Shown piece after piece: positions 1,169-30,480 of a DNA stretch of 30,890 nucleotides. Source of the stretch: a virus; IMG/VR virus record IMGVR_UViG_3300010318_000024, positions 1 to 30,890 of that record. The stretch is one strand, 5' to 3'. The position numbers were made by a program, and so were the translations under genes. Within the stretch, counting starts at the first letter, position 1. Each line of letters starts with the position of its first letter. A model generated the notes under the pieces. That model worked only from the letters and a program-made list of their open reading frames with translations. It did no database searches and had not been told where the DNA came from.

Positions 1169-1176
1169 TATTTAGG
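1169..1176 (-). promoter_or_regulatory. Possible weak late promoter upstream of gp15
   Basis: The minus strand reads CCTAAATA, one mismatch from the NATAAATA late-promoter form of T4-like cyanophages. It overlaps the gp14 stop codon and lies 38 bases from the gp15 ATG, further than the other candidates here. The spacer is very AT-rich, so chance is a real possibility. Confidence 0.3.
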
Positions 1177-3757
1177 GAATACCGAATGGGTTCTGCTCTG
1201 AGAAGTCTATAATTGAATCTGCTTCTGTTTCTATATCAATGTTATCTGCAAATCCATCATCTACTGGTTGGACATTAATTGATCTGAGATCATAGGAAGC
1301 TCCAGAAGTAGATCCTATAATTGTTTCTCCAACGGCAAATTCTCCTGTTACAGATGCTACTTCTAAAATGCTAGTATCGGAATTCCAAACTCTAACTCTT
1401 GCTGTAGATTCACTTATTGACCCAGTAATAATTTCATTAAACTGGAATGTTCCAGATCCAGTTGATTCTGCTGCAGAAATAGTTACCTCTGGTTCTATTA
1501 CATATCCATAACCAGAATCAAGAATATTTACGTTAGATATTGTTCCAGCGGTACTTACCGTAGCAATTCCTATTGCAGTAGTAATGCCAGATACTTGCTC
1601 AATATAATTCTTTTCTGATACTTCGTTAGAAATAGTTATTGTAGGAGGTGTTAAATAACCACCACCACCAAAAGTAACTGCGATTCCAGTTACAATACCA
1701 CAATTTTCAATACCAAATTCAAATACAGATGTTGCAATACCAACATTAGTAGCATATTCTGACATTGTTATAGATCCAGATCCAATAGATTGGACAAAAA
1801 CATCATTGGATATAAAGTTGTATGATTTATCATATCCAACACTAAGTCTTACTCTATCACCTACAATAATATTGGTCGTAGTAATTCCAGTAATGACACT
1901 CGATCCTATACCAACAGTTCCTTCTGCTGTGACTGATGTGGATCTAATAGTTGCAATGCCAAGTGCTCTAAATTGCTCATCCACTCCTCCAGGACTTCCA
2001 ATAGTAACAGATGGAGTAGTAAGGTAACCAAATCCACTGTTACCAATGCTAATTGTGTTTACTGTTCCAGCAGCTGAAACGGTAACAGTAGCAGTTGCTT
2101 GTACTGGAGATGGACTTCCGCTGAAGGATATTGAAGGTGCTTCTGTATATCCAAGACCAATAGTTGCTCCAGTTCCAACACACCAAGAATCTGTAGTACT
2201 GTTAAATCCAACTGCGGTGACAATACCCGTTACTGGATCAATTGTTGCAATACCAACAGCAATTTGAATTGGAGCATCTTGCCCAGAAGAAGTTGTTATA
2301 GCCACTGTTGGAGCGGTTGTATATGCTCTACCAGTAGTGCTAAAGGCAATAGAACCTGGATCTATAGAAGATCCAGCAATTCCTATAGTTGCGGATGCAA
2401 CACTTGTTCCTGGATGTGCGATTGTTACTGTTGGAGCACTGGTATAGAATTTACCTCCTGTAGTAATTGCAAGAGTTTCTACTGTTCCTCCAGTTTGTGA
2501 TAATTCGTCTAAAGTTGCAGTTGCTTCAGCGGCATTTCCTGTTCCTGTAGGTAGTGAAAAAGTAACAGTTGGTGCTGTTTTATAAAATACACCACCAGTT
2601 GTTCCTCCTGGGAACAGGAATGCTGATGTACCAATACTTATTGGTGCAGACACAACACTAACACCACCACCGACTATTGGAGAATCTAAAACAGCTGTGG
2701 CAGCTGCCCCAACATGCTTTGGTGCAGATATTGTAACTGAAGGAGAAGTTGTATATCCCGATCCACCAGAAGTTAATGTAACTATTCCAACACCACCTGT
2801 AGTTGAAATTCCTACTGTCGCTGCTGCTCCAGCTCCACTACTAGAAACAAATTTAATTCCTGGTGGACTTATGTATCCACTGCCAGCATTTAAAATTTGA
2901 ACTTGTTGAACCGATTGTGTTTTTGGATTTGCACTTTCATTGCAGACATTAATTCCTCCAATCATTTTTGCAGTTGCAATACCAGTAACTCCTCCAGTTG
3001 GAGCGGAGGATATTGCAACTCTAGGTGGTGTTAAGTATCCACCACCTCTATTTGTCATTCTAATAAATCTAATCGCACCATTCAAAATTCCAGCGGTTGC
3101 TGTTGCAGTTGCCGCTGCACCAATCAAAGTAAGTTTTTGAATACTTCCAATAAGCGTAGAAGATCCAGATTCTGAGATTCCATCTGCAGTTAAATCTCCA
3201 TTTGATACATTTCCATCAGAACCAATAAGAATATCATCAATTTCAGAGATGCCAGTATTAATTTCTTCATTCTCATAACGAAAGATTTCACATCTCAATT
3301 CATAGACATAATTCTTTTGAAGTTGATAGAATGGTTTTTCGTGCTCTACAAATTTGATTTCAAATAGACGATCACCCAAAGGAAAATAAATCAAATCTCC
3401 TTCCTTGGGTCTTGTAGAGAGTTTTATATTTTGCTCATTTTTTATAAGAGGTGTTATATAAGTTTCAAATCTCTCTTTTGAAATAACTAAATTCAGTTCT
3501 TGTTGTTGCTGTATTCCAAATTTTGACAATATTGTGGTATTGTCATTATACCCATCGAAATTGTCTATGTATGCTTCAATTGGATATGCATCATCAAATC
3601 TTGATTGAATAACCTCTTTGATGATTGTCTTTTCTGTAAGATATTTTCTTGGTAAATAATGCACTTCAACACCATACATCCTCAACTGTTCGTTGATAAG
3701 ATCTTGGATTAAATTTTGCTCAGACCTTGATCCTTGTTGAAAGTATGGATTAAGCAT
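1172..3757 (-). CDS. 14: gp14 neck protein, greatly enlarged by a beta-repeat insertion
   Basis: The protein has 861 residues, against roughly 256 for T4 gp14. gp14 and gp13 form the neck (head completion) complex that closes the filled capsid and accepts the tail. Residues 1-175 are the conserved part: MLNPYFQQGSRSEQNLIQDL, YGVEVHYLPRKYL, EGDLIYFPLGDRLFEIKFVE and the ISEIDD end. The last ~30 residues, with DGFADNIDIETEAD and FSEQNPFGIP, also look like a conserved gp14 terminus. Between them, residues ~237-761 carry about ten degenerate repeats of the form G-x-G-Y-x3-P-x-V-x-I, followed by one T-S-G-A/G-E-x-I unit (residues ~770-825). The start ATG is four bases after the gp13 stop, so translation is probably coupled. 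Several plus-strand open frames over this gene are shadows of its repeats. Confidence 0.94.
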   Translation of the reverse strand: MLNPYFQQGSRSEQNLIQDLINEQLRMYGVEVHYLPRKYLTEKTIIKEVIQSRFDDAYPIEAYIDNFDGYNDNTTILSKFGIQQQQELNLVISKERFETYITPLIKNEQNIKLSTRPKEGDLIYFPLGDRLFEIKFVEHEKPFYQLQKNYVYELRCEIFRYENEEINTGISEIDDILIGSDGNVSNGDLTADGISESGSSTLIGSIQKLTLIGAAATATATAGILNGAIRFIRMTNRGGGYLTPPRVAISSAPTGGVTGIATAKMIGGINVCNESANPKTQSVQQVQILNAGSGYISPPGIKFVSSSGAGAAATVGISTTGGVGIVTLTSGGSGYTTSPSVTISAPKHVGAAATAVLDSPIVGGGVSVVSAPISIGTSAFLFPGGTTGGVFYKTAPTVTFSLPTGTGNAAEATATLDELSQTGGTVETLAITTGGKFYTSAPTVTIAHPGTSVASATIGIAGSSIDPGSIAFSTTGRAYTTAPTVAITTSSGQDAPIQIAVGIATIDPVTGIVTAVGFNSTTDSWCVGTGATIGLGYTEAPSISFSGSPSPVQATATVTVSAAGTVNTISIGNSGFGYLTTPSVTIGSPGGVDEQFRALGIATIRSTSVTAEGTVGIGSSVITGITTTNIIVGDRVRLSVGYDKSYNFISNDVFVQSIGSGSITMSEYATNVGIATSVFEFGIENCGIVTGIAVTFGGGGYLTPPTITISNEVSEKNYIEQVSGITTAIGIATVSTAGTISNVNILDSGYGYVIEPEVTISAAESTGSGTFQFNEIITGSISESTARVRVWNSDTSILEVASVTGEFAVGETIIGSTSGASYDLRSINVQPVDDGFADNIDIETEADSIIDFSEQNPFGIP
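1475..3050 (-). repeat. Ten degenerate GxGY beta repeats inside gp14
   Basis: Repeat cores, in translation order: GGGYLTPPRVAI, GSGYISPPGIKF, GSGYTTSPSVTI, GVFYKTAPTVTF, GKFYTSAPTVTI, GRAYTTAPTVAI, GLGYTEAPSISF, GFGYLTTPSVTI, GGGYLTPPTITI, GYGYVIEPEVTI. Spacing is uneven, mostly 40-70 residues. Linkers are rich in G, A, T, S and V, often with A-x-A-T-A or G-I-A-T-x. The pattern suggests short beta strands building a repetitive beta fold. Divergence at both protein and DNA level indicates old duplications rather than recent slippage. Confidence 0.85.
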
Positions 3758-3761
3758 AGGA

Positions 3762-4607
3762 TTAACCGATCATGTCCAGTGGAGGGAGTTCATAAGTATT
3801 TGACATCGTTTCTCTGATCACGTCAAGTTCTTTTTGTGCATCATCATAAATTTGTCTTCCATTTAGTTCAACACCTCCAGGAAGTTTCACCCCCTGGAAC
3901 TTCATGAGGTTTTGTCCCCACTGTCTCTTAATCAATTGAGTTACATATCTCTTAAGGAAAGAATCATTCCAGACTCTTGTAAAGTCATTTGGATTCAATA
4001 GGCGATAGCAATCTATAATGATATAATCATCCTTAGTTACATCTCCCCAATCAACATCCAAGTAAAGTCTGTCTTGTCTTTGATTAAATCTTATTTGCTT
4101 TTGAGTATTCAGAAGAAAATCCATATCTTCCAAATACGTCTTAGTCATAGCATAAGTTAGAAGTTCGGTTGATCCCCAATAGTAGATATCATTGAGGAAC
4201 ATCTGATACTTCACACTAAACATATTATTGCTTACTGTTTGTGATCCATCGTATCTGAATATTTTGTTGATTCCTATTACTTCTGGTGGAATCTGTAGAT
4301 AATTACTGTTCTCTTCAAATGAAAATGTTACGGATGATCCATCAATCGTAGAACTTGCAGTCGTAGTTACAATTCCAACCGCTTTATTGTCTCCTCTAGT
4401 TCTACCTCTATCAATATCTGCCTGAGTAACCTTATATTTTAAAAAGGTTTGAACTACACCGTCAAAATGTCTTTCGTGAAAATATTGAAGTGCATCATCT
4501 ATTAGATCATCAATTTGCTCATCAGCAACATTGACTTCTAAAACTGGTGCTCCCAGTTGTCTTTTGCAATAGTTTATTAGGTCAGACCTACTTGCTGGTT
4601 GAGCCAT
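3762..4607 (-). CDS. 13: gp13 neck protein (head completion)
   Basis: This 281-residue protein is close in length to T4 gp13 (about 309). It partners gp14 in the neck that seals the DNA-filled head before tail attachment. The N-terminus (MAQPASRSDLINYCKRQLGA, then PVLEVNVADEQIDDLIDDA and YFHERHFDGV) is strongly conserved in T4-like cyanophage gp13. The C-terminal half keeps IDCYRLLNPNDFTRVWND, the LKRYVTQLIKRQWGQNL stretch and a proline-rich end, ELPPLDMIG. The ATG lies in a 25-base spacer after the preceding gene, which holds a late-promoter match. No strong Shine-Dalgarno is close to the start; an AAGGG lies further upstream. gp14 follows after four bases. The protein is the normal size, with no repeat insertion, unlike its partner. 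Confidence 0.95.
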   Translation of the reverse strand: MAQPASRSDLINYCKRQLGAPVLEVNVADEQIDDLIDDALQYFHERHFDGVVQTFLKYKVTQADIDRGRTRGDNKAVGIVTTTASSTIDGSSVTFSFEENSNYLQIPPEVIGINKIFRYDGSQTVSNNMFSVKYQMFLNDIYYWGSTELLTYAMTKTYLEDMDFLLNTQKQIRFNQRQDRLYLDVDWGDVTKDDYIIIDCYRLLNPNDFTRVWNDSFLKRYVTQLIKRQWGQNLMKFQGVKLPGGVELNGRQIYDDAQKELDVIRETMSNTYELPPLDMIG

Positions 4608-4629: not shown

Positions 4630-4637
4630 TATTTATG
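4630..4637 (-). promoter_or_regulatory. Putative T4-type late promoter upstream of gp13
   Basis: The minus strand reads CATAAATA, an exact match to the NATAAATA form of T4-like late promoters recognised by the phage sigma factor gp55. It lies 22 bases before the gp13 ATG, overlapping the last codons of the preceding gene. Placement is similar to the candidates before gp8 and gp25. Confidence 0.6.
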
Positions 4638-5031
4638 GTGCTGATGAAACAGGATTAACGACTAAAATGTTACCTGATATAAAAGGATAAACAGTTGATC
4701 CGCCACCAACTTGATGTTTAAGCAAAACATCATAAACATATCTACCTTCTGGTGTTGCTCTTGTATTAACAGCACCTAATGATATTTTTAACTTACCATC
4801 ATATGCGCTAGTAAATCCAACAGTAAACGATGAGGTAATACCAAGAGTAGCTCCAACTGCCACACTTTTGGACATAGCAGCAGATCCACTATAGTTTGTC
4901 AAATCAAATGCTGCATTTGACGTTGTATTAACAACTAAATTAACTTCAAAATCCGAACCACCATACATGGTTAGATTTACGCTTTTTGGTACACCAGCAT
5001 CAGGATCAAAGGTTATGTTTTTAGTTGCCAT
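4633..5031 (-). CDS. Putative virion structural protein, beta-sandwich type
   Basis: The 132-residue protein is rich in beta-prone residues, with no charged helices. The layout YGGSDFEVNLVV, then FDLTNYSGSAAMSK, then DGKLKISLGAVNT and GRYVYDVLL, ending in a short V/I-rich strand (GNILVVNP), resembles the N-terminal Ig-like domain of phage baseplate upper proteins (BppU type). I infer a small virion decoration or tail-associated protein; similar small proteins occur between the baseplate and neck genes of marine T4-like phages. Its ATG lies inside the end of the preceding gene (11-base overlap), so translation is probably coupled. It sits where T4 has gp11, gp12 and wac (fibritin), but I see no coiled coil or fibritin foldon. 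Function is not established. Confidence 0.75.
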   Translation of the reverse strand: MATKNITFDPDAGVPKSVNLTMYGGSDFEVNLVVNTTSNAAFDLTNYSGSAAMSKSVAVGATLGITSSFTVGFTSAYDGKLKISLGAVNTRATPEGRYVYDVLLKHQVGGGSTVYPFISGNILVVNPVSSAP

Positions 5032-5203
5032 TTGAAATACCTATTATTGACATTGTTTCCTGTTGTTTATAATAAAGTTTACAAAAGCACTTAGCAATTT
5101 CTCTGAGTTGATTCTTGTCATTACAACTATCTATTACAGTTGCTAACTTGGTATATTCAAAACTTTTAGAAAGATTATCTAAAATTATACTATCTGGATC
5201 CAT
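5021..5203 (-). CDS. Small conserved phage protein (60 aa), unknown function
   Basis: The 60-residue protein starts MDPDSIILDNLSKSFEYTKL and continues with an IDSCNDKNQLREIAKCFCKL helix and a YYKQQETM segment. It looks all-helical, with three cysteines and no signal peptide or membrane segment. Small proteins with this DNLSKSFEY...KQQET pattern are common in T4-like cyanophages next to structural genes, but I know no function for them. The start is well supported: AAGGGAG lies seven bases upstream of the ATG. The gene overlaps the preceding gene by 14 bases and the following gene by 11, so the three small frames form a tightly coupled unit. Confidence 0.75.
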   Translation of the reverse strand: MDPDSIILDNLSKSFEYTKLATVIDSCNDKNQLREIAKCFCKLYYKQQETMSIIGISNGN

Positions 5204-5414
5204 TGATTAACTCCCTTAATAATAATTTAATTTCGGAAATGTCCTGTTTAAGGTTAGCAACTTCATCCTCAATGTTCTGTACTTTTTGATGCTCTTTATT
5301 ATTCACTTCACGTCTTGCAACATATTTTTCATGATCTAAAGAATTCAAGTTCAGAATTGCATTTGTTCGCGGATCCCTTACGAGATCCGCATGATCTTTT
5401 ACTTTATGCATCAT
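5190..5414 (-). CDS. Small coiled-coil phage protein, unknown function
   Basis: The product has 74 residues if started at the first of two adjacent ATG codons (5414, 5411). An in-frame start at 5429 would add MLWLN but lies inside the preceding giant gene and is less likely; related cyanophage proteins begin around the M-x-K-V-K motif. The N-terminal part contains KVKDHADLVRDPRTNAILN, a typical small-cyanophage-protein opening. Residues ~40-70 (VQNIEDEVANLKQDISEIK, then LLLREL) form a heptad pattern of I/V/L and predict a coiled coil. The start follows the stop of the 2510-residue gene by only one base, so translation is likely coupled. A hairpin (5369-5390) lies within codons 8-15. Function is unknown; an oligomerising accessory or fibre-attachment protein is possible. 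Confidence 0.72.
   Translation of the reverse strand: MMHKVKDHADLVRDPRTNAILNLNSLDHEKYVARREVNNKEHQKVQNIEDEVANLKQDISEIKLLLRELINGSR
5211..5217 (-). promoter_or_regulatory. Ribosome binding site of the 60-aa gene
   Basis: AAGGGAG on the minus strand, seven bases before the ATG at 5203. It lies within the last codons of the preceding gene and fixes the start of this overlapping frame. Confidence 0.7.
5369..5390 (-). other. Hairpin in the 5' coding region of the coiled-coil gene
   Basis: A perfect 7-bp inverted repeat (GCGGATC / GATCCGC) with an 8-base loop, GC-rich against an AT-rich background. It starts 22 bases inside the gene and has no following U-run, so it is not a standard intrinsic terminator. 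It could affect translation or mRNA stability. Confidence 0.4.
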
Positions 5415-5415
5415 A

Positions 5416-8400
5416 TTAAGCCAGAGCAAGTACCCTCAGATTTTTGATTCTTGGAACGTATGTCTGTGACGTTCCTGTTAGTAAGATCTTAATTCTATAA
5501 GATCTAAATGTTGGTAATTGATCCATGGTAAAGGTGTGCTCTTTAAATTCTATAGATCCACTGTCAAATCCATATGTTGGAGTTTTGGTTACATATGAAT
5601 CTGGATCACCATTGTTGTTTGCTACATCAATAACTTGACCTCTGGAATTGATGTTTGCATATCCTGGGAAAGGAACAAAGATTGGGTTGAATCCATCTTT
5701 GTTACTAATGGCATAGAAAACTTTAATGTCAGAATAATCATTGATGTGTGCATCAAGAATAACTTTCAATGATGTTGCAGGATTTTGCAGTTTAATTTCT
5801 TTAGAAATGTACTGACATGCTGTTGGATCGGTGAAGATTCCATTTGCCCTCGAATCAGTTGCAAAGTTAGTGATAACATCATTTACTCTGTTAGATGAAA
5901 GAATTACGCTGACTCTTTGCCCATCAATCACTGGCGATATGCGAGAATCGGTAGTCACCATGTTAACTCTCATTTGAAGAGATTTGGATCCTTCAATTGA
6001 GGTAAGTTTGGCATCTTCATTAACTTTAGAACAGATGAGTCTTGTCGAATCAAGATAATTTGGTTGATTGACAATAACAGGTTCAAATCCATTATTAACG
6101 TATGGAATTTCATTACCACTGATGCTTTGACCAGTAACTGTTCTAACTTCTGCATTGAGAGAAGTTCCTCTTACAGTGACATTTTGAACGATTGGAGTGA
6201 TAATTTCAAAAGGCATATTTTGAGTTGCCTTAATCTTTGTTCCACCTGCAGACTTAGTTGCTCCAACATAAAGTTTAGGCCAACCCACATCATTACTTCT
6301 ATCATCATTTTCGGAGTTAAATTTCTCCGACATGTCCAACTTAATATGGTAAGAATCATATGTAATAGAGTTTCCGATAGAAACCTCGCTCAAAGTATGA
6401 GTCTTGTTAATTCTCTTCAGGTTTACTCCACCAAGTTCATACTTATAAACTGGTGTTCCTACTGGATATGTAATGGGGTTAGTTCCTCTAACAATATTCC
6501 CGCCAATAGTGTTTCCTGTGACTGAAGTATATTCAATAATTTCATCTCCAATCAACAAGTAACCAGTATTGGTAGTTCCAACACCAACATTTTCAAATGT
6601 CGTGAAGTTTGATGCACTATCAACAGAAAGACCTGCCGTAGAGTCTGGTGCATAAGATGCACTCAATTTAGTTGGTTTGATATCGGGAGAAACTCCCGAA
6701 ATTATAACTCTGTTGTCAGTGAAATACATTCCATGGTTTTGATGATTGACTTTGAGGTGAAGTCCATCATTATCAACATTAATTGTAGAAATTTGAATGT
6801 CTCCACCAACTCCACCAGGCAAACCATAATTTAATTCAGTTGTGATTCCTGAACTGTTGATATACATCATTGTCTTAGCAGCACCGACAGAGAATTCTCC
6901 CTGAACATTTTCAAAAATAAGTTCATTGGTTTGCCCAATACCAGCAACAGTCAGTCTTACGTTTTTACCTACAGATGCATTACCGATAGTTGTAATTCCA
7001 AGAACGTCACCGACTTGATAACCATTGCCACCTGCATTAGTTACAGTTGCCGCAACGGCAACACCATCGACAACAGTAACGGATGCTTGAGCACCTCTAC
7101 CATTACCACTCAAAGTAACAAGATTAACTCCAGTAAAAGTAAGTGATCCATCATTAGGGGTAAGTCCAATACCTGCGTTAGAAACTGTCAGAGTGCCTAC
7201 AGCAGTTCCTGCGGTTCCAACTAAATCTCCAGTTGCATTTGTCCCTTGCTGGAAGAAAGTATTTCCAAGTTCATACCCAGAATCTGCAACAGTACTTCCA
7301 AGACCAACTCTAATTTTTCTTGAATTGAGAATAATTGAATCGGGTTGAAGTGTTGGAATTTGTCTATTTCCACTTGTGAGTTCTGGACTATAGAATTCAA
7401 TGGTGCCAGAATCCAAGAAGTCTGCCCTGTACATAATAAATTTAAGATCTTCCCACTGACTTGCTTCCCAAGTGGATGCGTTCTGAGACTTGAAGAGCGA
7501 TCCAAGATATGGTTGGTTTGAAATAAATACATCACTAAGGAGATCATTTTCACCAATTCTTGAGATGTAAACACTATACTTAGTAGAGTTGGATGCAAGA
7601 GCAATTGCATACTCTTTACCACCTTCTAAGTAAACTGGTGCCTTAAACTCAATTGTGGTCGCAACAGATCCATCGTTGGAAGTGTTGATATCTGCAGGAT
7701 CAATAACAATTTCAGAGAAAGGAAGAATCTTCTGAGTTGGAAATCCATTCTCCATTGTTCTCAATTGGAACACCAAAGGAATGTCCATATCATCTTTACT
7801 TCTGAAGAAGACATCACACTTGGTGACAAATACACCAGTATCTTCTTCAACTAAGAACGATTGTGCAAGAGGATCATACCAACCAACAATTGTATCATTT
7901 GAGGTTTGATTTACAACTTGAGAACCAACGACTTCTGTTCCAAGATTTCTGTTGACATTTCTTTCTTGGAATTCTTGTCTTTGCTCAACTCTTGCATTTC
8001 TAACAGAAATAATATTTTCTTGAACAGTTTCAAGAGTTCCAGAAGCAGTAAATCCTTCTTCTGCAATTGTTGTTGCTACGTTAGGATCGTTGTCAACATC
8101 ATTGGTTAAGGTAAAGACTTTTGTTCCAGACTCAAATCTTGGATGATTAAGATTATTTGGATTGGGAATGAAGAAACTACCAGTCAGATTTGCAGCAAGA
8201 TCCGAAATAAGTCTTACTCCAGTTACTGTAGCTTCAGCTCCACTTGTAGAACCTCTGAGAATCATACCTTCGGCAACATAACCACTATAAGTGCCTTGTG
8301 CCTCATTGGATAGTGAGAATGTATCTATGTTCAGAATGGATGAAGTTCCAGAGTAAACTGCAGAGAGAGGAGTTCCATCGTATGGATTTTCTCTATAAAC

Positions 8401-12954: not shown

Positions 12955-14505
12955 TTAGAACTGCAAAATGATTTTGATATCTTCTTTTTGGTTAGATGAT
13001 CTTGTAATTGAGGGTCTATTATCAACGTAAATAATATTTCCTGCATGTTTTTTAACTTCAGGACCCGCAACTCCACTTGTAAATGACTGACCAAGATAAT
13101 ATGTCCTATTATTTATTATGGTTGTGATACCCGTGAAGGATGTGTCAATTGCGAGATTTGATCCACTTGATGGAATAATCGTGACGCTTCCGCCGGCATC
13201 TGGAGTGGCAGTAAATTCTTTCAACTCAAATCCATAAGTTGGATTTGTAATTCCAATCCCAGCAGTTGTAAATCCGGCAAGAGATCTATCTTGCCAATAT
13301 TTTAAAACTCCCGTTGTTGCATCATAACTAACTACTCTGCCAACTGCCGTTGACCCCGTTGCAACTGTTTGAGTAAAATATGAGTCAGCAGTAAAAGATG
13401 CCGAACTATATCCAGTTCCAGTCAATTTCAGGGCACTAAGAGCACTTGCTTTATCCGATGTTAGAATAGTTCCAGTAGATACTTGTGGATTTTCGACAAT
13501 ACCAACTCTTGCGATTTGATTTCCAGTTACAAAATCTGGGTTTTCGTTATCATTTTCAATTCTAGAATAAAGTAAAACATTATTTGCTCCAAGTTCCCGA
13601 TAAATGTCTTTTCCATGTCCTCCCTGTGGGGATATAATAACATCAAATGTTGGAATAGTAGTTCCTGTCGGAACTCCTCCGGATGGCAAGTCCAAACTTC
13701 CATAAGTATATCCTGATCCTTGATTTGATACAGTGACACTACTTACTTTAGAGTCCGCACCAACTGTAAGGGTACATTCTGCTCCAGAACCATCTCCTTT
13801 GATAGGAATTCTCGTATAAGTTTGATTTGCAGTTCCTAAACCAACTCCAGCATTAGTAACGGTAACAATTTTAATAGATCCATCTACAGCATTGTCTCTA
13901 ACTGCCGCATTATCATTAGATGATGACCAGTCCGAAGGAACAGGCATAAAGTCTGTAGATTCAAACTTTACAACTTCATTTGGTTTAATTGTATATAGAT
14001 ATTTCCAAATATATCCATCTCCACTAGAACCTGCGGATCTTGGTTCTAAGTCTGTAAATGTTGGTTCGTCTAGTGATGGTTTACCATTAGGATTTTGAGG
14101 ATCAGTGCCATTTTGAAGACAAATATAAACTCTAAAATCAGAATTCATTACATAATAAAATGCCGAATATAAATTAGTTGCACCGGAAACAGATGCAGTG
14201 TTAGTGACGCTATAGTCGTGACGGTACATATCATATGTAGTACCAGATGTCCAAATTCTTTTTGGAATAACTTGCCTCACATCAGATGAATTAATTTTTT
14301 TCAAAGCAATCATCGTATCCCAATAATCACTCTCTTCCGAAAAATTATCTTTCGGTGCGGGTGGACTTGAATCCCAGTCACTTTGATAGTCACTGGGATT
14401 TGGTAAACCGATGAATGAATAATATGAATTTGAACTGGAACTAACTCCAGCTACAAAATTTTTCGCATTCAAAATTCTAATTTGATCAGTTATAATTGCA
14501 GCCAT
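12955..14505 (-). CDS. 8: gp8 baseplate wedge protein
   Basis: The 516-residue protein compares with about 334 residues in T4 gp8, which forms a dimer in each baseplate wedge together with gp6, gp7, gp10, gp25 and gp53. The N-terminal region (AAIITDQIRILNAKNFV, YYSFIGLPNP, ESDYWDTMIALKKI, VIPKRIWTSGTTYDMYRHDY) and the GDGYIWKYLYTIKPNEVVKF segment are characteristic. An inserted part near residues 210-300 contains IVTVTNAGVGLGTANQTY and VTVSNQGSGYTYGSLDLP, the same beta repeat type that enlarges gp14 and the gp7-like giant. The C-terminus (KHAGNIIYVDNRPSITRS, then KEDIKIILQF) is a typical gp8 end. The start lies 33 bases after the gp7-like stop, behind a late-promoter match; there is no convincing Shine-Dalgarno sequence. 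Confidence 0.92.
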   Translation of the reverse strand: MAAIITDQIRILNAKNFVAGVSSSSNSYYSFIGLPNPSDYQSDWDSSPPAPKDNFSEESDYWDTMIALKKINSSDVRQVIPKRIWTSGTTYDMYRHDYSVTNTASVSGATNLYSAFYYVMNSDFRVYICLQNGTDPQNPNGKPSLDEPTFTDLEPRSAGSSGDGYIWKYLYTIKPNEVVKFESTDFMPVPSDWSSSNDNAAVRDNAVDGSIKIVTVTNAGVGLGTANQTYTRIPIKGDGSGAECTLTVGADSKVSSVTVSNQGSGYTYGSLDLPSGGVPTGTTIPTFDVIISPQGGHGKDIYRELGANNVLLYSRIENDNENPDFVTGNQIARVGIVENPQVSTGTILTSDKASALSALKLTGTGYSSASFTADSYFTQTVATGSTAVGRVVSYDATTGVLKYWQDRSLAGFTTAGIGITNPTYGFELKEFTATPDAGGSVTIIPSSGSNLAIDTSFTGITTIINNRTYYLGQSFTSGVAGPEVKKHAGNIIYVDNRPSITRSSNQKEDIKIILQF

Positions 14506-14532: not shown

Positions 14533-14540
14533 TATTTATT
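14533..14540 (-). promoter_or_regulatory. Putative T4-type late promoter upstream of gp8
   Basis: AATAAATA on the minus strand, an exact NATAAATA match. It overlaps the stop codon of the gp7-like gene and lies 27 bases before the gp8 ATG. It would give gp8 and the DUF4815 gene a transcript independent of the 12.5-kb gene upstream. Confidence 0.55.
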
Positions 14541-17500
14541 ATGTATTTGATATGATGTAATTCTTAGATTTAAGACTTACAGATCTTTCAACTCTCATGG
14601 AGGTATTAATTCCAATAATTCCTCCAGAAGTGTACGCTGTGTAGGAATTTAATCCAGCTCTAGATGCCATTACCAATTTACCCCAACTATATTCACCATA
14701 ACCAGCAGAAGTGGTTGTGGAAATTGATCCATAAGTTCCAAAGGCAAACGCATTGTCAACATTTACAAATACTCTCTTGAATACAGAAGTTCCTATACCA
14801 ATGATATTCCTTTCAACGTTTTCGACATTTTGTACAACGTATACGTTATCAATAAAGGACTTGCCAACGCCGGCAGTAGAACTATCGACAGGATCAAGAG
14901 AGACTATAGATGTTGATGCTGATCCAATGTTAGAATTGGAAACAATGAAGTAATCATTTACTTGAAGGGCACTTAGAGTTACTGCGGTTCCAACTATTGT
15001 GGTTTCTCTAAGTTTGGAATCATATGGAATATGGAGATCAAAAATAAATTGAGTAGTTACCCCACTTACAGTTGTGGTTCCAAATCCAACAATGATTCCA
15101 GAATCACCAAGATAATCGGTGATGAGGTTTTCTTCTTCTTCATAATCAGGTGGAGAAATCAAGACGACAGGTGGTTTACTGCTTGTGTATCCAGTTCCAA
15201 CATTTGTCAATTCCAGAGCAGAAATTGTTCCACCTACACTAATGACAGCATTTGCGGTAGCAGTTGTAAATCCAAGAGTTACATCCTGTTGAGCAGTTCC
15301 TCCAATACTAACAGTAGCAGTAGAATATCCAACACCACCATCAAATATTACAAGAGAAGAAACTGTTCCTGCAGTGCTTACAATAGCAGTTGCTGACGCA
15401 CCAACTTTTGTGATTTGAGAAGCAAATTTGACTTTTTGTTGGAAGGCTAGAGTAATGTTATTTTCATTTTGTCCATCAAAAAGAGGTCTTACGCGATCAA
15501 CATAAATCATGGTTGAACCAATACCAACTGTTTTGGTAATATATGCATATGGGTAGATTAGAGGTTCATATAACTCTCTATCCTTTGCAACACGTTTTTC
15601 ATCAATAATTTTATCTTCAGTTTGTCTACACCAAACAACAGGTCTATAAAGAGTTTCATCTGCTGTATTACCTGGTCCAAAATATGGGAACGTTTGAACT
15701 TGATCTGTAGAATTTATATTTGTAACTGTCCTTGCTTCCTCTTGTAAGAAATTATCTTGACCACGAGCAGGATCATAACCAATAGTTAATTCATCTCCAA
15801 TTTTAACGGTGTCAATAACCTCTCTAAGGATAACATCAGTGTCATCTCCAGTTCCTTTGAAGAAGAGAATCTTACAAGTATCGCCAACCTTAGGTGGTTC
15901 TGCAAAAGTAATGACACTACCACCTGGGAATTGATAACCTTGGCCTGGTTCTTGGAGAATATCGTTAATAGTAACGATAAGAACTTGCTCAACATCAACC
16001 TTAGACCCTCTTGGTGCTCTAATTGATATCAAACTTCCAGCAAGTGTGAGATTAAATGCCTTTGTCGCACCATCAAAGTTTGCTGATGGATCATCAAGTG
16101 TTTGAAGAACTCCGATACTCCATCCAGTGAATTCGTCAGAGAATACTGATTGAACAGTTAATTCAAACCTATCAAATGTTCCAGAGGTTGGAATTCCAGT
16201 CAGTCCCCCAACAGGGACTGTTAGAATTTCACCTGCTGCATATCCAACACCCTTGTTGTTGACAGAAAAATCAATTACACTTGAACCCTGTCCAACAACG
16301 ATATCGACAGTAGCATTTAAACCAGAGAATGCTGTACCAACATAATTTAATGGAATGTTTTCATATGGCAAAGGAGCGTCAATTCTAACAAATGGTAAAA
16401 TATCCGTTGTGTAACCAGATCCGGGGTTGGTGATCGTTACTGAAGTTGAAATGTTTCCAGTTCCAGTCATAATGGTCGCAAAACCAATATGAGTCATGGT
16501 TGTTACACCTGTTGCACTTTCACCTACGCTAACATTTACAAATCCAATCTGTGGATCTGTAACTGTAATTCTTGTCTGAGTTCCTTGACCAATTAATGTA
16601 TTAATAGTGTCTCCAGTTCCAATTCTTACAAATGTAGATGCTGAAGAGACAATTGTTGCTGGAAGAATTGCAGTTCCAATTCCAATGGTACAATTAGAAC
16701 CAGTATTTAGACTGCTAATCAGATCAAGGACACTACCGGTATTTTCAAGATAAATTTCAGTTGAACCAACGCCTACTGGAGACGCAACATTAGAAAGGAA
16801 TTCGTACTTAGTTCGTCCTCTATATCCAGATCCAGTATTTCCAATGCTAATTGAAGATATGGTTCCAAGTCCAGACACAACTGCAGTTCCACCTGCAGAT
16901 ATCAAAGGTTGATATCCAGATCCTTCTGTTGATCCAAGCGAAAGAAGAACTCCACCAAGAGGAATGTTTGCGGTATTTGCATCAGTTGTTGTAGATGAAG
17001 CAGTTCCTGTCCAAGTAATAGTGGTAATTCCAGCACTTTCTCCCATCGTGAAGTCCCTAGAAATTCCAGGACCTTGAAGGATGTCGTTGATCAGTATAAT
17101 TGCATTTCCGGTAGAAATACCAGAAATTGCGGAAGACCCTGCAGATGTAAGAGTATAAGTTGGAGTGTTTCCGTCAAATTGATCAGAAAGACTATCAAAG
17201 AGGTAGTTTGTGGAATAAGTATCATTTGCAGTATCTGTAAGGCCAGATCTCATAAACATTCTTCCTTGGAAACTGGATCCTGTTGTAATACCAATCCAGT
17301 CTCTATCATCTGGTCTATTAGTAACACTACCAATTGGTTGATTTCCGTAAGGAGCCTCAACAAAGTGAATAGCATTTTCAATAATATTGTAATTTCCAAC
17401 AACCTTAGTGATTGTATCACCCGTTGATCCAACCCCGATTCTTGTACCCAACCATCCTCTACGAACTCTGAAACTATTTGTACTTCCAATGCCGATAGCG

Positions 17501-20500
17501 GTAATCTTCATAATTTCATCACCCATCTTAATCAGATCTGATCCGAAGAATGATGTTATTCCACTCACAAATATATCATTATCAACACTAGAAACTCTAT
17601 CTGCAAGTGTTTGAGTTTGTGCAGTAGAAACGATTGGGGATTGAATTAAATTATCGATCGCAATTAAACATCTTGCATTTTGATTTGTTGCAATAAATCT
17701 ATGAGAAGTTCCAATTCCAACACTTTCTAACTCAATAGGAATAGGGATTCGCTTAAGTGCATTTTCCGCAGTAGATGCAAGTTTAATCTTATCATCACTA
17801 ACCTTAATTGCAAAAATATCTTCGTTAATTGGAAGATATTCAGTATTTGCCACTCCCGCAAAACTTGTTGTTGCAATACCAATAGCAGATGTAATACCAC
17901 CATTCCTATCATATCTAATTTTTTCTCCAGTTACGAAGAAATGATTTGGAATCGTAATAGTATTTGCATCAATAGAAATAATACTAGGATCATTTCCCAA
18001 GAAATATTTTTCAAATACGGGTGCAGATCTATGCTCTAAGTTGAATGATTTTTTAACAGCATTTTCAGTTCCCTCATATCTTGCGTAATGAGTAACTATT
18101 AGTCCATTTTCAAAATCAATCTCATCTTTACTATCATCTTCAAGTCGTAGAGCATTCATGTAAGTTTTGACCGTGACTGCTATTCCAGCATTTGGAGTAA
18201 ATGTTAGAGCAACTCCATCTGATGAAGTTCTAGCACCAAAAGTACCAAGACCTGCTACATATGGTAAAGTTGATTCAGTTTCAACTATACCAAACTCCGT
18301 CATAAAGACAGAACCAGTTCCATCTTCTTGAGTGTCATCATCAAGGAGTAAAAGTTCTCTCATTTCGTAATGATTATTTGTAGCATCTGAAATTTGAACT
18401 ACAAAATAAGCTGCATCATATAGAGAAGAATATGTTGCAACTGTCGTTATTCCTGGAGATCCCGAGGGGAGAATTGCAGTTGTATTTGCATCAATAAGAG
18501 CATGTTTCATCTCAGTTGTTCCAAATCCAACTATAGATTCGGTTGTAATTCCAATTTGAAGAGTGTTTGCAGTTACCGCTATTCCTGCAGAAGGAATAAA
18601 GTCAACTTTAAATGTTGATGTTGAACTATCGAGGTATGGATAATAAGTTCCAAAACCAGTTCCGGTAAATGAACCTCCATTAGAAGTTATTCTTCCATAT
18701 TCTGTTGCATAAACATCAGTTCCATTATGAATTAAATTAAGTTCATCGTATTGATATTCATTATTAGTAAGATCAGATAAACAAGAAAGAACTTTTAATG
18801 TTCTAACCGTATCCGCTACAGAAACAACTGTTGTCCTTCCACCGCTACAATCAATACTATCTGTTTGGATTTCTACAGCATTTCCAAGGAAAACTGTTGA
18901 TCCAAGTCCAGCAATAACATTATCATCTAAATGATATGCAAGGTTAACAATTTGATAATCATTAAATGCGAAATCATTTGGGAAGAATTGTAATGACCCA
19001 TTGACTCCAGATATTGTAAAGTCATACGATCCAAGGTCGCCAACCGTTTCAGTTTTTCCATACTGGTTGAGATATGCAAATGTTCCATCTTGAAGTGTGG
19101 TGACAATATCAAATTGTCTATGTCCTACATATCTTTCATCCTTCACATAAACAAAATATTTGAGAGCTCTACTGTTATTAACATTATAACTATCAATTAA
19201 AGCAAATCTAGTTGCTCTTGGATTACTGTTGAATAGTCCACTAAAATCATCAAAGTTGACAACTCTATTTCCAAAAGACTCGAAGAAGTCTGTAAGAATT
19301 CTACTTGCAAAAATAATTTCATCAGAATAAACACTGCCTGCAATATCAAGAGAATTTTCCGCAACTAGGTCAAAATTATAAACACAATTGAGATCGGCAA
19401 TTCCATAAAGATCATTTACAACACTGAAGTATGACAGTTCCGTTGATAATCCAACTGCCATAGAATTTCCAGCACCTTCAGAGAAAGATGGTGGAGTCTC
19501 AATTTGATAATCAGAAAACTTTTTAAATCCTGCGGTGTGATTTGTGGAACTAACAACATCATTCCAAGTATCATAGTCAACTTTTGATCTGAGTGAGTAT
19601 GAGAAGTTTTGATAGTAGAAACTATCTTGAATTCTCTGTAGACTTGCATTTAGGAATCCAGAATCTGTTTGAGATCCTTTAATCACTCTAGAAGTTGCAT
19701 CGGTATCAAGCGTAGAATCATATGTTGTAATTGAAGATGCAATTCCTTGAGTTTTGGAAGAGGTTCCTTCAATAGTTTCATTTAATAAGAAGTCTTTGTT
19801 TGTTGAAACTCTTAATGTCCCAGTTTTTTTATCCCAACTTTCAACAATACCAGAAGTTGTGTCAGATTTAACAAATTCTCCATCAATAAATTCATTGTCT
19901 TTTAAAGAAATGTCAAATATTGGAAAATGTTTTTCTGGAATGATTCTTCCACCAGAATTAAATGCATCATATTCTCCAACAAATTCACCTCTTGCCGAAT
20001 CAAATAAACCTTCTAGACTATATGCAACAGTTGCACCAACTCCGCCAAGATTTTTATCTACGGCAATAATTGGGAATAGTTTGTATCCATATCCAGAAGA
20101 ATTAAATCCTCTTCCAGTTGATCCAATACCAACACTGATATTTTCGATCAAAACTTTATCACCGACCTCAATGGGGAAAGTCTCAGCTGTGCTGAATCCT
20201 ACTGCTAATGTAACAGTAACTTGATTAGTTGTTGTATTAAATCCAATAGTGCTAATTCCAACTCCATTTGTATTTGCTGTAGGTAAAATAGTTGGAACAG
20301 TGTTACTCATTCCCTTGGTATTTTTCAAGATGTGAACTTGATTGTCCCCGAGAGAATATTTCAGATCTACATCTTTAATTTGCTCATTTGTTTTTCCATC
20401 AAAGACTAAGAGTTTAGGTGCAGATGAATATCCTTTTCCACCAGACGAAATTCCAATAGAATCAAAAGATTTTAGAGATTTGATTTTAATAACATTTGGA

Positions 20501-23500
20501 AGTGTTATTGAAGGTCTCAGAGTTTTATCTGATGGGAAATCGAATCCAATGTCTTTAATTCTTGTCTTATTAATTTTACCAACAGTGTTGCTTTCTGCTT
20601 CTAAAATAATTCCTCTACCGTCTATAGAAGTAACTGTTGTTATTCCTGGAAGAGCAAAATAAGACTTTCCAGAATTAACTACTTCAATTTGAGTTACTGG
20701 ACCTCTAGCATGAATACAAGTTGTTTCATATACAATATTAGCTAAAGAAGTAGAAGAAATATATGAAGATTGCTCAGGAGTTACTCCAATTGTAAACGCA
20801 AATGAATTAGTAGAAGCTGTAGAAACTCTATGTTTTCCATTATAAAGACTCTTTCTTACCCTAGCTGTATTATTTTCAAAAACGTCTTTATCGATGGTAA
20901 TTTCCGTTTTTTCTGCTGGAACGTCATCACTTTCATAGACTGGATCTAATCTGTAGTAAAGTTGATCTGGAGTATTTTCATTGACTACAAGCGATACCTT
21001 TGCAGTTCCATCTATACCAGGTCTTCCAGTTCTTGTTACATCATAATTCTTATTATCACTCAATTTACCAATATACTTGTTGGTAAAGTTTTTATCGTAA
21101 TAGAAGTTAAGTTCAAAAGATGGATATGATGTATTTTGAATAGTATGTGATAAAGATGAATCTGTTAGTGTAAATATAGCGGTAGAGTTCTTGTATAGTG
21201 TGATTGGTGGGTTAATTGGGTTAATTGTTCCACCACCACCAGTGCTGGCAATTCCGACTGTAAATGGAATCGGTCTTGTAGAATCTACATAACTGTTTGC
21301 TAGTTTAAATGAATCGTTATCAACTATGGATACGTAATAGATGTTATTGTTGGTTAGACCTTCAGCACTGTCTCCAGATGTATAAACAATTTTCTGTCCA
21401 TTAGCAAATCCATGGTTTATTATTGTTATAACACCAGTAGATGTATTGATTCCTGTAGAACTATATGATTTTGGATTAACAATTAATTTTCTGTTAAAGT
21501 CATTATACTTAATTGTGAATGACGATAAAATTCCTGGGTTTACGTCCAAGAATATATCATGATCGACAGAAAGTTCGTGAGATTGTCCTGTAGATACGGT
21601 TACAGTATTTCTTGAAATAGTTCCTGTAATTTTATTATAATTTGTTTTGAGACTGTGATAAACCCCTGTGCCAACTCCAAGGAATGCCAAAGTGGTCGAT
21701 GCGGTGGTTCCAATTCCAACAAAAGTACCTGTTGTTCCGAGACCAACCCTAACAGTTGAAAGTCCGATTAAGTTATCTGCAACTTTTGCTACAAATAATT
21801 GAGTTTCATTGGACAAAGTTGTTCCAATACCAACATTTGTCTCATCTTGAACTATAATTCCACTTCCACCATTGGCAGAATATGTAACCAAATCTCCTGT
21901 TTGTAGTCCATGATCTTTTATAAACAAAGTTTTTGTTGGTATCGTTACATAAGTAGCTCCAACACCTGGATTTGAGAAGAAAATAGTACTTCCAATTCCG
22001 ACTCCAGCAGTGCTTCCTAATCCAACAGTGTCTGCTGGATTAAAATAAATTTGTTTATTTGTTTTATATTCAAATTCAGTTTTAAATCCTGCCGCGATAG
22101 TTAATTTCCTTTGAAGTACAGTAACTCCAGTTCCAACAGTATGCGATACTCCAACGACACCATTTATAGATCTTAAAATTCTAAGTCTAGATAAACGAGG
22201 ATCAACATTTAAAACTTTAACTTGTTCTGTTCCAATCCCAAGAATGTCGTTTTCTCTAATGTTTGGATAGTTTAAATTTCCAGAAACATTAATATAAGTG
22301 ACGATTCCAGTTGCTTCGACAGTTCCAATTCCAGAAGATGTTGTTCCGACTCCAACAACTGTATATACATCTGTTCCAATTCCTGCATTATAAACTCCCT
22401 CCAATGATGTAGAAGTCGTCGAAATTCCAGAAACAGTAATAATATCTGAATTGTTAAAATTATGAGGATTATCTGTAAATAATAAATATTTTCCTTTTTC
22501 GGAGGAAGGGTAGAATTCTACATTTGAGATAGAACTATTGGCAACGCTCACACTATCTACAGGTCTTCCTAAAATGCGTGAGACCCTTGCAGAAACGCCT
22601 GTACCACCAGTGTTTGTTTCGTCGAATACAACTGAGTCGTTTACCTTATAATTGTCTCCTCCGGTAATAATTCCAACGGAGTTAATTGATCCCCTTAAAG
22701 CATTTCTAACTTGAATTTCTTGATTTAAGTCATTTGGTAAAGAAAGGTACTTATATCTTGTTGAATCTCCATCAATGTAATTGTATGGAGAAGTATTTTT
22801 GACATAATTTGATTTATTAAAATCAAATTCATCTTGGTTTGCTACTTTTTGGAAGTTAAATGGATTTGGTTTAGCATGGAAATTGTGTCCTACAAGATAT
22901 GGGAACTTAGGTCTTCTAAATCCTGTAAAAGGTGACTGAGTGTCTGAATCATCACTTGCGATAGTTGCAAAATATGCATATGTTCCTTCTGGAAAATCTG
23001 GAGTTATGCAATATCTTCCATTGTTTTCATCAAGTACACCAGATCCAGTTCTATTTTTGTAAGTATAATCCTCAATAAAGAATCCAGAAGGCCAAACAGA
23101 TAATGGAGGTCTATTTGCTTTTGTAGAATCTTCAACATATCCACTTTCCATAATTTGGACTGCGCCACCACTTCTAGTGGAATAACCATATGGTCCATAA
23201 ATTGGATGTCCATCATAAGCCCATCCAATTATTGGAGAGTGTTGAGTTGATACTGCTTCTTGCTTTGTGTTAACATTAATCTTAAGATCTCTATCTCCAT
23301 AAAGATTATTCCCTGCAGCATCTACTGAGTAAATTAATTGTCTAAATTTTCTTGGAGCATATATGTGAGAGTATTGTAATCCAAAATCTTCATTTGTTCC
23401 ATTTTCTACAACTCCATCGTCATCAGCAAATGTATGGAGATATTTTTGGAAAAGGTTAACCCTCCAAGTTTGAATATTTGCCTTTAAAGTCGCACCTCTT

Positions 23501-26500
23501 CCTGGGAAAACTACATTAATAGAAGTAGTTTTTTGATCATATCCAGTTCCAGATTCTAAAACTTTTACTGAAGAAATAGATCCGTTTGTAAGAATTGGAG
23601 TTACAACAGCACCGATTCCATCTCCAGAGATTGATAGATCTGGTGGAGAATTATATTTTTTTCCAGAATTGAGGATAAGAACTTCCTGGAGTTTCCCATT
23701 ATTAATAACAGGTTGAAGTTGTGCTTCTTGGCCAGAAATAGCAGTTATTAATGGTGATTTATCAAGATTTAAAACCTCCGAAGAACCATAACCAACACCA
23801 TTGTTTGAGAGATTAACAGAGGTTATTCTTCCTCTAAAGATAGGTTGCAATTGTGCTTGGAAAGTTTCAGATCCTATTGAAGAAATTCCTATTGGTCCTG
23901 CAATAGAAACAGATATTTCTGGGTAGTTGAATGAATGAGTTCCGGATCCTTTTGAAAGGAATCTTACAAATTCGTTGTTATTATAATAGTACTTTCTTGT
24001 AGAAGTTGTAAGACCAATATTTGCTAGTCTAAAATTATCATTATCAACTTTTATCACATAATACTCAGTTCCGTCCGTAAGTCCTCCGATTGATGAAGTA
24101 CCTGCAGTATACTTAATTTTTTCTCCAGAACTATAATCATGATTTTTTATTGTGATCGTGTCCTGGGATGTGCTAATTCCAGATGTTCCTACAGATCTTT
24201 TTTTATTTTCATATCCAGATCCACTATTAATAATTGAAATTGATTCAACTACAGATTTTTTCTTAACTGATTGCAGTTGATGCACGCCATTACCATAAGA
24301 TGTTAATTCGACGGTATTGATTCCAGCTAAAACATCACTAAGTTTATTGTGAAGTTTTACTGTTTGATTGTTTTGAACAGAGACGTGATATTTTGCATCT
24401 GTAGTCAATCCACCAACTGCCTGTTGTCCCTGAGTCCTGTAGATTACTTGTTCACCATTTCTGAACTTGTGGTATGTACTAAATCCAATTGTGGACTGTG
24501 TAGATCCAAGACCAACTCTATTTGAAGCAACTTCAGAAAAGAATGAAACTGCATGATCAATGAGTTTCATATTGGGACTTGCAGATGCTCCAGTTCCATT
24601 TCCACCAGAAATAGTGATGGTTGGATTTGACGCATAATCAAATCCAGGATCAATTACTCTAATTTCTTGAAGAGATCCAGAAACTGCAATATCTCCAGTA
24701 GCGCCAGTTCCAACTGGATCATTAATAAACAGCAGTGGCGGATCTATAATGTCAAAGTCTTCTCCAGGTGCAATAACGTCTATACTTTTAAGTTCCCCAT
24801 AATAAACAACATCTTTTGATTTGTAATTTAAAATTTCAACCCCATTAACAAGAATTCCATTATAACCAGGTTCTGTTGGAGTTAGTTTTGCAATATGTTC
24901 TGGTTTCTTAGGAATTTCTCTTAATAACTTTTGAGTAGTAAGAGTTCTATCTTTAAATTCAAAAGGTTTTAAAGTATTATTAGTTACTGTAAGTTGACTT
25001 TCAACAGATATGAACTTTTCGTTATAAATATCGTTTCTACTCTTTGCAAGTTTTATCTTTGTGTCTGATATTTTTTTAACATAGTAAAGACCATCCGGGA
25101 AATTAGCACCTAAAGAAGTGCCTCTTACTATTCTTGTATCAACTTTTCCTTCATCGGTAATATACGATTCTGTAGTTAGTTCTGCAGCATAATAAACTGC
25201 ATCTCCAGAGTAAAAATTATGCCTACTAAGTGGAGTTATCTCAAGTTCTTCCCCAAGAAAAGTACCGGAGAAAGTAACTGTCCTATCACTTGTATTAAGT
25301 GTAGAAGAAAAATATGATGGAATAGACGATGATGCTACAAGGAAATTATCTGCATTATCATATACTCCTTGCACATTTGCTTGATATAATCCTGCTGATA
25401 AAAAATTAGCAGAGTTTCCTTTTAAAATGTTTCTATTAACAGTATAGGATCTATTGGGATTTAATGTTCCAGAACCCTTGATTGAAATAATTTTATCAGA
25501 GACAATTTGGTAAACAACAGCTGTTCTTTTAGTTCCAGTTGTGTCAACTATAGAAATGCTATCATTAATTTTAAAATAATGATCATTATTTAAAGTAAGA
25601 TCGTAACTATTATCTGAAGAGTCTACAAGAGTAATAGATTTTACAGAGTGTGATGATGCATAATTATAGAACCAATTTTTAAATGCAGATTCGAATTTAT
25701 CTTTTCCTAAAGTTCTTAGTCTTGCAGTATCTCCATCGCGGAAATTTTTAGTATTTTCTGGTAAATTAACATTACTAAGAACAGAATTGATTCTTACGGT
25801 AATTATTTCATCTTGATTTTTGAATGATCTACCATAAGCAAATGTGTTAATCCCAACGTCTTCTCCATCAAGAATTGTTCCTGTTATATTGGTGCATCCA
25901 AAAAACTCTGTTAATGTTTTAGACGTGTATGAAACAACCCCAGTAGTAGTGTCATTATAAGTGACTACTAATTCTCCGGTTGTTCCAAATCCAACTGTTG
26001 AGTTTACAGATAAAATCGAAGATCCAGATCCAACTTGACCAATTAGTTTCGTTTTGGGGTGTACCGAAAAAGATCCACGAATGGCACCTTGAACTTCAAT
26101 GTCTCTATCATATCCACCATCAAGACTCAATTTGTAAAAACTTTTTGCAGTGCCGACTTGGAGTTTTTCTACCAGGATTATGGGAGCATATGCTTCTACA
26201 ATATTTGCAAATTCATATGGTTGTTGAAAAATTGTTGCCTGATCAAGATCAAGAGGATCTCCTGTTACAGCTTCTACAACCAAGTCATTGGCAACTCTAA
26301 AGTCGGAATTTGATGGAGTAAAGAGAAAATCTCTTGGTTTGACTACAACTACATTTTCATTATATAATGCTTTGAATAATATCTCAAAAGATCTATCAGT
26401 TCCTCTACTAAGATAGAAATCTTTTGATTGTTTGATGAAAAGATTTTGATTCAAATCTTCATCTAAAGTTCTTGAATCGAGAAGGGGTAAAAATTGACGT

Positions 26501-29751: not shown

Positions 29752-29756
29752 CCTCT
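29752..29756 (-). promoter_or_regulatory. Ribosome binding site overlapping the upstream stop codon
   Basis: AGAGG, four bases from the ATG at 29747. Its first two bases are the end of the TAG stop of the 241-aa gene, a typical termination-reinitiation arrangement. Confidence 0.65.
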
Positions 29757-30480
29757 ATTCGGCATTAATACAACGTACATCACAAGGATTTTGTCCGCAA
29801 TTTGAACATTTATCACTATTTAAAGGTTCTTTTTCGCGTTCTTTGGCAGTTTTCCAAAAATATTCATCTTCACGTCCCATTCCAAGACGTTCAAAACCAT
29901 TTTCAACCTGATAATACTGAGTTGAAACCTTAAAATCAGGCATTTTTGGTTCAACAGGAGTCAGACTATTGTCAAAAATACGCATTCTATTGTTTGGATA
30001 GAGTGCATACTGCCCATTATCAAGTTCAATCAGATTATGTGACTTATGTTCAGCTGGATTTTCACTTGTTGCATAATCAATGACATCAGGATCTTGATGA
30101 TAATTATCTAATGTGCAAATATATATTCCTTTTTGAATACCAAAGTCGCGTGTATACAATTCATAGTCCATTGAACCAATAAACTGCTTATGAATTGAAA
30201 CAACACCATAATCCATACAGTTCCAGAACTGTAGGTTAGGAAGGTCTAGATCGGGGTCTGGAAGCGTCGGAGACGAGAGAAACGCACTGATAGGTAGTTT
30301 ATCATACATTGCAGCATATTCTGGTAAATACGTCTCAAAATAAAAAGTGCGCCCAGGTATCGACTTTGCCGATACCCAAACGCCTTTAACAAATTCTCCA
30401 TGACCACTTTGGTGATCAGTAAGATATTCTTTACGTACCCAGACCTCTACCGAGGGAAGGTTGCAAATAAGAGCAGACAT
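29755..30480 (-). CDS. Conserved cyanophage protein (241 aa) with C-terminal four-cysteine motif
   Basis: The product starts MSALICNLPSVEVWVRKEYL, continues with HGEFVKGVWVSAKSIPGR and FYFETYLPEYAAMYDKLPIS, and has LIELDNGQYALYPNNRMRIF in its second half. This overall sequence is familiar as a conserved protein of unknown function in T4-like marine cyanophages, usually close to baseplate genes. The last 18 residues hold C225, C228, C233 and C237 (CSNCGQNPCDVRC), which could bind a metal or sit in a redox-sensitive tail. It has no membrane segment, signal peptide or enzymatic motif that I can identify. The 19-base spacer upstream lacks a clear Shine-Dalgarno. The stop overlaps the ribosome binding site of the next gene. 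I assign no function. Confidence 0.8.
   Translation of the reverse strand: MSALICNLPSVEVWVRKEYLTDHQSGHGEFVKGVWVSAKSIPGRTFYFETYLPEYAAMYDKLPISAFLSSPTLPDPDLDLPNLQFWNCMDYGVVSIHKQFIGSMDYELYTRDFGIQKGIYICTLDNYHQDPDVIDYATSENPAEHKSHNLIELDNGQYALYPNNRMRIFDNSLTPVEPKMPDFKVSTQYYQVENGFERLGMGREDEYFWKTAKEREKEPLNSDKCSNCGQNPCDVRCINAE

Follow-up and report, generated by a model that had tools for sequence, protein, structure and literature searches.

The gp14 gene and its head-closure domain

The virus record analysed here (30,890 bases, hereafter the window) carries a gp14 of 861 residues, and the question that it raises is what the additional residues form, where they lie on the virion and what they may do there. 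T4 gp14 has 256 residues and the gp14 of cyanophages without repeats has 292–310, so that the protein is roughly tripled in length, as an initial annotation of the sequence had proposed. The gene, that of the head closure protein Hc2 or T4-type neck protein, lies at positions 1172–3757 between gp13 (the adaptor, 3762–4607) and gp15 (the tail sheath stabiliser, 129–1130), all on the minus strand, and the T4 gene order gp13-gp14-gp15 is thus kept. Over its first 8 kb the window is closest, among named phages, to Synechococcus phage S-SM2 (80.7% over 76%), and we therefore take it to derive from a T4-like cyanophage.

Residues 1–176 of gp14 (3230–3757, minus strand) constitute the head-closure domain, which is recognized by sequence and by fold. 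Residues 1–174 match the Pfam family T4_neck-protein (PF11649) at 1.7e-32 and 113.3 bits (cut-off 25), the profile of PHROG_460 (head closure Hc2) matches gp14 at 3.3e-143, and in a sequence search of the PDB the T4 gp14 structure 9mkb covers residues 2–176 (E 2.5e-27). T4 gp14 is also the top match of the predicted gp14 structure (Foldseek, 9mkb, E 5.6e-9), and the VIA fold comparison of the domain with T4 gp14 gives a Z of 10.2 (rmsd 3.0, 97 residues aligned). The earlier assignment of the first ~175 residues to gp14 is therefore confirmed; the gene is a cyanophage gp14, the N-terminal barrel of which closes the head, by homology. The protein shares the head-closure domain, the fold and the gene order with T4 gp14 (PF11649; 9mkb, 9lu4–9lu7) and PHROG_460 (385 positions), whereas the T4 protein has neither the base domain nor the array described below. 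It represents a variant form of an established neck protein and is not unique to the window: PHROG_460 also matches the array and base regions, so array-bearing cyanophage proteins are already included in this family. (A gp14 that is 100% identical over its full length is found on a second IMG/VR contig, L009.)

An array of ten GxGY units

A unit profile finds exactly ten units within residues 227–770 of gp14, with scores of 17.6–37.7 bits, in agreement with an earlier motif scan and with the ten GxGY repeats that had been noted at 1475–3050 (about residues 237–761). Units 1–8 span residues 227–600 (1958–3079, minus strand; motif scan and unit profile) and units 9 and 10 residues 687–770 (1448–1699, minus strand; unit profile), the starts of adjacent units being spaced by 36–63 residues save for an interruption at ~601–686. 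When residues 177–832 were shuffled 1000 times, no shuffle reached 8 bits and three reached at least 3 bits; because the window was among the gp14 relatives used to train the profile, these shuffles test the pattern, not its independence. In its strict form GxGY occurs in no more than about half of the units; their actual pattern is G-x-x-(x)-Y/F...P-x-V-x-I. At the level of sequence, the presence of ten such units in gp14 is firm. Literature searches, judged by title and abstract and covering mainly openly accessible papers, gave none that evidently treats gp14 arrays or GxGY repeats.

Two structure models, one of full-length gp14 (from 35 sequences) and one of the C-terminal portion of a relative with four units (from 57 sequences), predict the array as β structure without long helices, and in these models the insert is repetitive, as the initial annotation had anticipated. 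In the full-length model the array has pLDDT values mostly of 70–90 with dips to the fifties, and the pTM of 0.47 leaves the relative placing of the domains unsure; in the four-unit relative the units reach 85–95. According to the latter model, each unit would consist of three strands, the first long and the second short with the G-x-x-Y turn between them, and the third pairing with the next unit in a hairpin.

The base domain, the inner barrel and the C-terminal tail

The sequences on either side of the array seem to belong together. Ahead of it, residues 177–226 (3080–3229, minus strand) contain a linker and, as judged from model strands and flank alignment, the first strands of a base domain (207–211 and 219–225); after it, residues 771–831 (1265–1447, minus strand) form the second part of this domain, to which positions 290–342 of PHROG_460 match at 4.2e-12. 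In repeat-less cyanophage gp14 a stretch of ~90 residues plus the tail follows the head-closure domain, and the joined flanks of the window align with the gp14 of P-RSM4 (49 of 116 residues identical, score 173 against a shuffle maximum of 83) and with that of S-PM2 (50 of 120, score 194 against 86). In the VIA list of the four-unit model many entries, translation-factor barrels among them, run from residue 13 to ~264 with no more than 60–75 residues aligned, at low Z values of 4–5.7; the strands on both sides of the array thus seem to form one barrel in the model. Because the flanks align with repeat-less gp14 and VIA rows span both sides, it is well supported that the array grows from a loop of the small cyanophage base domain. 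Homologues with and without the insert exist, and the latter is no part of the ordinary gp14 fold.

The annotation had pictured ~550 residues of repeats lying between two conserved ends. The ten units fit this description, but the array is inserted within the base domain and is broken up by a small β barrel that is not a repeat, at residues ~601–686 (1700–1957, minus strand; delimited by VIA). Residues 607–682 of this inner barrel resemble 8eci_1 from Arthrobacter phage Bridgette (VIA, Z 7.7, rmsd 1.8, 65 aligned, 29% identity); a sequence search of the PDB for solved relatives gave no significant match.

The conserved C-terminal tail (residues 832–861 plus stop, 1172–1264, minus strand) was defined by alignment. 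The suggestion that the last ~30 residues are gp14-like is borne out for repeat-less cyanophage gp14, in which they are clearly conserved, but not for T4 gp14, against which the alignment scores at chance level (equalled or exceeded in 285 of 1000 shuffles). Residues 178–256 of T4 gp14 are described as disordered before tail joining and as contacting gp15 extensively in the virion (PMC12270204); by analogy, the conserved tail presumably grips gp15, and the array would therefore leave the protein near gp15, at the top of the sheath.

Variation of the array among relatives

The number of units was compared in a mostly marine sample consisting of the best 80 loci of each of five gp14 scans; its unit counts therefore do not represent frequencies in nature. 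The 414 loci gave 410 frames, of which 388 were complete and 331 unique (incomplete and duplicate frames being dropped), and the window was added as the 332nd row. Units are absent from 57 sequences, and the others have 4 (117 sequences), 5 (14), 6 (57), 7 (3), 8 (4), 9 (3), 10 (69), 11 (5) or 12 units (3); most sequences thus have 0, 4, 6, 8, 10 or 12. The length of gp14 varies from 212 to ~1,100 residues and correlates with unit number at 0.94. Even numbers, zero included, account for 307 of 332 sequences in a first pass and for 313 of 331 at a looser threshold, with the caveat that related sequences are not independent and that a change of threshold makes some odd counts disappear and others arise. 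From the models and these mostly even numbers we infer that the units pair, the array of the window then forming about five small β domains plus the one extra barrel.

A quickly built N-domain tree of 109 rows, in which 39 of the 105 inner branches are left open, requires at least 18 changes of unit class and mixes four- and ten-unit forms within a 34-row clade of support 100. (In this tree S-PM2 was set to zero units without its own scan, a state covered by a six-frame scan, and the four units of S-SKS1 were assigned separately.) The closest named relative found, S-SM2, has an N-domain 86–88% identical to that of the window (87.6% in direct comparison), the same first units, base domain and tail; its gp14 differs in having 481 residues and 4 units, that is ~six units and the inner barrel fewer. 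Units 1–3 of the two proteins are 72, 54 and 68% identical, respectively. Given these matching units beside a close N-domain and arrays of 4 versus 10 units, the sequences establish that arrays lengthen or shorten as whole blocks of units are gained, lost or exchanged. The idea that four-unit forms arose by simple deletion was considered and rejected: for a few residues, unit 3 of S-SM2 looks as if units 3 and 9 of the window had been joined, which is not the case in the four-unit gp14 of AG-345-O18, P-TIM68 or S-SCSM1. Between the window and L003, L006, L007 and L010, four pairs that are not independent, dS is 0.53–0.65 for array residues 227–600 and 1.2–1.5 for the N-domain; the lower value of the array, about half of that of the N-domain, fits an exchange of arrays between phages, which may have occurred, values of dS above 1 being near saturation.

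Resemblance to domain I of T4 gp18

The best VIA match of the four-unit model is domain I of T4 gp18 (3foa_A residues 99–188 to model residues 40–119; Z 6.5, rmsd 3.1, 76 aligned, 18% identity), followed by 3j2m and 3fo8, so that gp18 appears in three entries. A Z of 6.5 falls in the range that VIA calls possibly a common arrangement. By this comparison with the four-unit relative, two units would correspond to one six-stranded domain I, and the apparent likeness extends to the two-unit size, the strand order, GxxY-like turns and the nature of domain I (98–188) as an inserted domain; it differs in being a single domain in the sheath, and its kinship in sequence is weakly supported. The VIA list for the full-length model of the window itself does not include gp18. 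Foldseek searches of the repeats against the PDB gave nothing below E 0.04, which does not make the fold new.

Sequence comparisons of the units with gp18 gave mixed results. Domain I of T4 gp18 carries the motifs GSNY and GKNY, 41 residues apart, and a profile of 212 unit pairs aligns with it in register over both motifs, at 11.7 bits (33 of 3000 shuffles as high). On 13 other gp18 rows, which have II or IV where T4 has the NY of the second motif, the best score is 17.9 bits (4 of 3000 shuffles) and the worst is at chance (480 of 3000); on other parts of gp18 the pair profile scored below 0 in three cases and gave no score in the fourth. Alignment of unit pairs with domain I by hhalign was not significant (probability 0.4%). 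In gp18 of marine relatives (L435–L514, 535 to 883 residues, taken as the longest complete frame), a unit of at least 8 bits is present in 5 of 70 unique complete frames, all S-PM2-like and with one unit each. At this threshold no unit is found in T4-type rows, two of which are short fragments of 453 and 519 residues, and 700 shuffles gave no hit. Kinship of GxGY pairs and gp18 domain I is possible.

In T4, domain I of gp18 is described as protruding and as binding the retracted long tail fibres, and the gp18 mutations G106S, S175F and A178V as inhibiting fibre retraction (PMC3004832). Counted without the first Met, these positions are the glycine of GSNY and residues within the SSGLAA loop. 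Should the kinship hold, it would connect the arrays with a domain of T4 in which mutants of fibre retraction are known.

Fibritin and the wac position

The annotation had also remarked that wac, the separate gene for whiskers in T4, is not visible in the window. In agreement with this, Fibritin_C matches neither the window nor any of nine cyanophage records; the clear match in T4 is the sole one among the 11 records searched. Where T4 has wac, the window has three small genes (4633–5429, minus strand), none of which is fibritin. T4 fibritin is reported to dock on domain III of gp13 (PMC12270204), and the gp13 of the window (281 residues; PHROG and alignment) is without most of this domain, ~40 of the 50 residues of T4 190–239 being missing in cyanophage gp13. 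(The gp13 of S-CAM9, L084 371–1492, has 373 residues and an insertion of ~90 residues with respect to other cyanophages.)

According to a 2010 review, wac is one of the T4 tail genes that cyanomyoviruses have not been found to carry, and proteins still to be identified are expected to take over such tasks; the review also describes a cryo-EM picture of S-PM2 as being without collar (PMC2984593). The gp14 of S-PM2, of 292 residues, has no unit at 12 bits in the six-frame scan and groups with the repeat-less forms in the tree; that a phage without collar is also without array agrees with a whisker-like role, as a single case. The same review mentions a cyanomyovirus with distinct whiskers from St. 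Kilda, as an unpublished observation (PMC2984593). S-SKS1 (gp14 of 491 residues, 4 units) was suspected to be this phage from its name; its record says North Atlantic, and we do not take it as evidence.

Possible function of the array

T4 gp14 is reported to be a hexamer contacting gp13 and gp15 (PMC12270204). Because of this hexameric state, and because six times ~540 residues cannot fit the DNA channel, six gp14 arrays would encircle the neck from outside; it is probable that the array protrudes from the neck or lies at its surface. In the mechanism that we propose, the head-closure barrel would be followed by the base domain and by the tail on gp15, and one loop of the base domain would extend into the ten units, paired into small β domains. 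At the upper end of the tail this array would offer a surface for docking and keep the tail fibres retracted, as gp18 domain I and the whiskers do in T4. The proposal, to which we assign a probability of roughly 0.4, draws by analogy on the moderate fold match to gp18 domain I and on the absence of fibritin. It is weakened by the gp18 match having come from the four units of a relative, by the Z value and the Foldseek and hhalign results given above, by the pTM of 0.47, by a laminin-G-like insert pointing to adhesion and by the occurrence of the same kind of module in a baseplate-wedge-like protein (see below for both). The array would resemble the collar and whiskers of T4 in its proposed neck position and role, but T4 fibritin is a separate trimeric coiled-coil protein on domain III of gp13, whereas the array is predicted to be β structure.

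In fibritin-less cyanophages the stopper might even act as the collar, six gp14 arms of pairs kin to gp18 domain I holding the retracted fibres with a reach tuned by the number of unit pairs; taken as a whole, this picture is unlikely. If it were true, GxGY pairs would serve T4-like virions in general as a module for docking fibres. A modular stopper arm of variable length would be a concrete candidate, in many marine phages, for the work of the missing wac, and the question can be tested with isolates, by comparing the array-less S-PM2 and P-RSM4 with S-SM2 and P-SSM2 (4 units each) and S-SSM7.

The main rival, given that one lineage has a lectin-like domain inside its array, is an adhesive arm, in which the array would serve as a scaffold at the neck whose binding surfaces face the cell surface, glycans or seawater particles, with no role in fibre retraction. 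The lineage in question is represented by S-SSM7, the gp14 of which (L088 1495–3780) has a Laminin_G_3-like stretch at residues 323–448 amid GxGY units (E 7.6e-6, 26.6 bits, below the curated 27.6); of 242 relatives found with the S-SSM7 query, the best 80 align with the query along almost its full length. The identity of arrays, which between close relatives is below that of head-closure domains, also speaks for adhesion. A receptor binder, however, would be expected to change fast, and all regions of gp14 are under purifying selection, dN/dS of the array being 0.11–0.19 in four related pairs. (Positive selection on the array was considered as well and none was seen in these pairs.) Anabaena phage A-1(L), likewise a cyanophage, has beaded neck fibres, but these (gp80–82) are three separate proteins on a 15-fold ring, whereas in the window the stopper protein itself carries the array. 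The carbohydrate-binding module at the distal end of the A-1(L) fibre is described as not binding to its host (PMC10966104). On balance we regard an adhesive arm as somewhat unlikely.

Alternatively, the array might be a brace or collar that lies flat around gp15 and the upper end of the sheath and stabilises the joint. The base domain adjoins the tail corresponding to those C-terminal residues of T4 gp14 that contact gp15 extensively (PMC12270204), and the domain placing left unfixed by the model would accommodate such an arrangement. Yet 57 of the 332 related sequences do without any array, and a brace might be expected to have co-evolved with gp15, the length of which does not follow unit number. 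The gp15 of the window (333 residues; PHROG, Pfam and alignment) has an extra domain at ~245–310 ahead of its conserved C-terminal tail, and named phages hinted at such an extension as the partner of the array; this did not hold over 294 loci, in which gp15 has 340–349 residues in 30 of 54 repeat-less cases and 270–279 residues in both 12-unit loci with gp15. A brace is accordingly improbable.

Least credible is an array with no dedicated task, made of common cyanophage virion repeats that were spread by recombination and are tolerated here: the units do match many virion PHROGs and their number switches between relatives as close as S-SM2 and the window, but the array is under purifying selection, the 10-unit form recurs across many contigs and unit numbers are mostly even.

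A docking surface for retracted fibres, the reading that we prefer, would employ a module that is not specific to the neck, since an array of the same kind is found in a baseplate-wedge-like protein of 4158 residues (PHROG_2885; 14539–27015, minus strand). This protein contains six weak GxGY units, and its residues 2072–2437 match PHROG_460 in the array and base regions of the latter, with an E value of 2.7e-22, from which it follows that neck and baseplate share a composite module. A gp8-like protein (12955–14505, minus strand) has a match to the repeat part of PHROG_460 (205–267, E 6.5e-4) and may thus also hold a unit. A PHROG_3704 protein, named ferredoxin and of the auxiliary metabolic class (29755–30480, minus strand), adjoins the baseplate genes.
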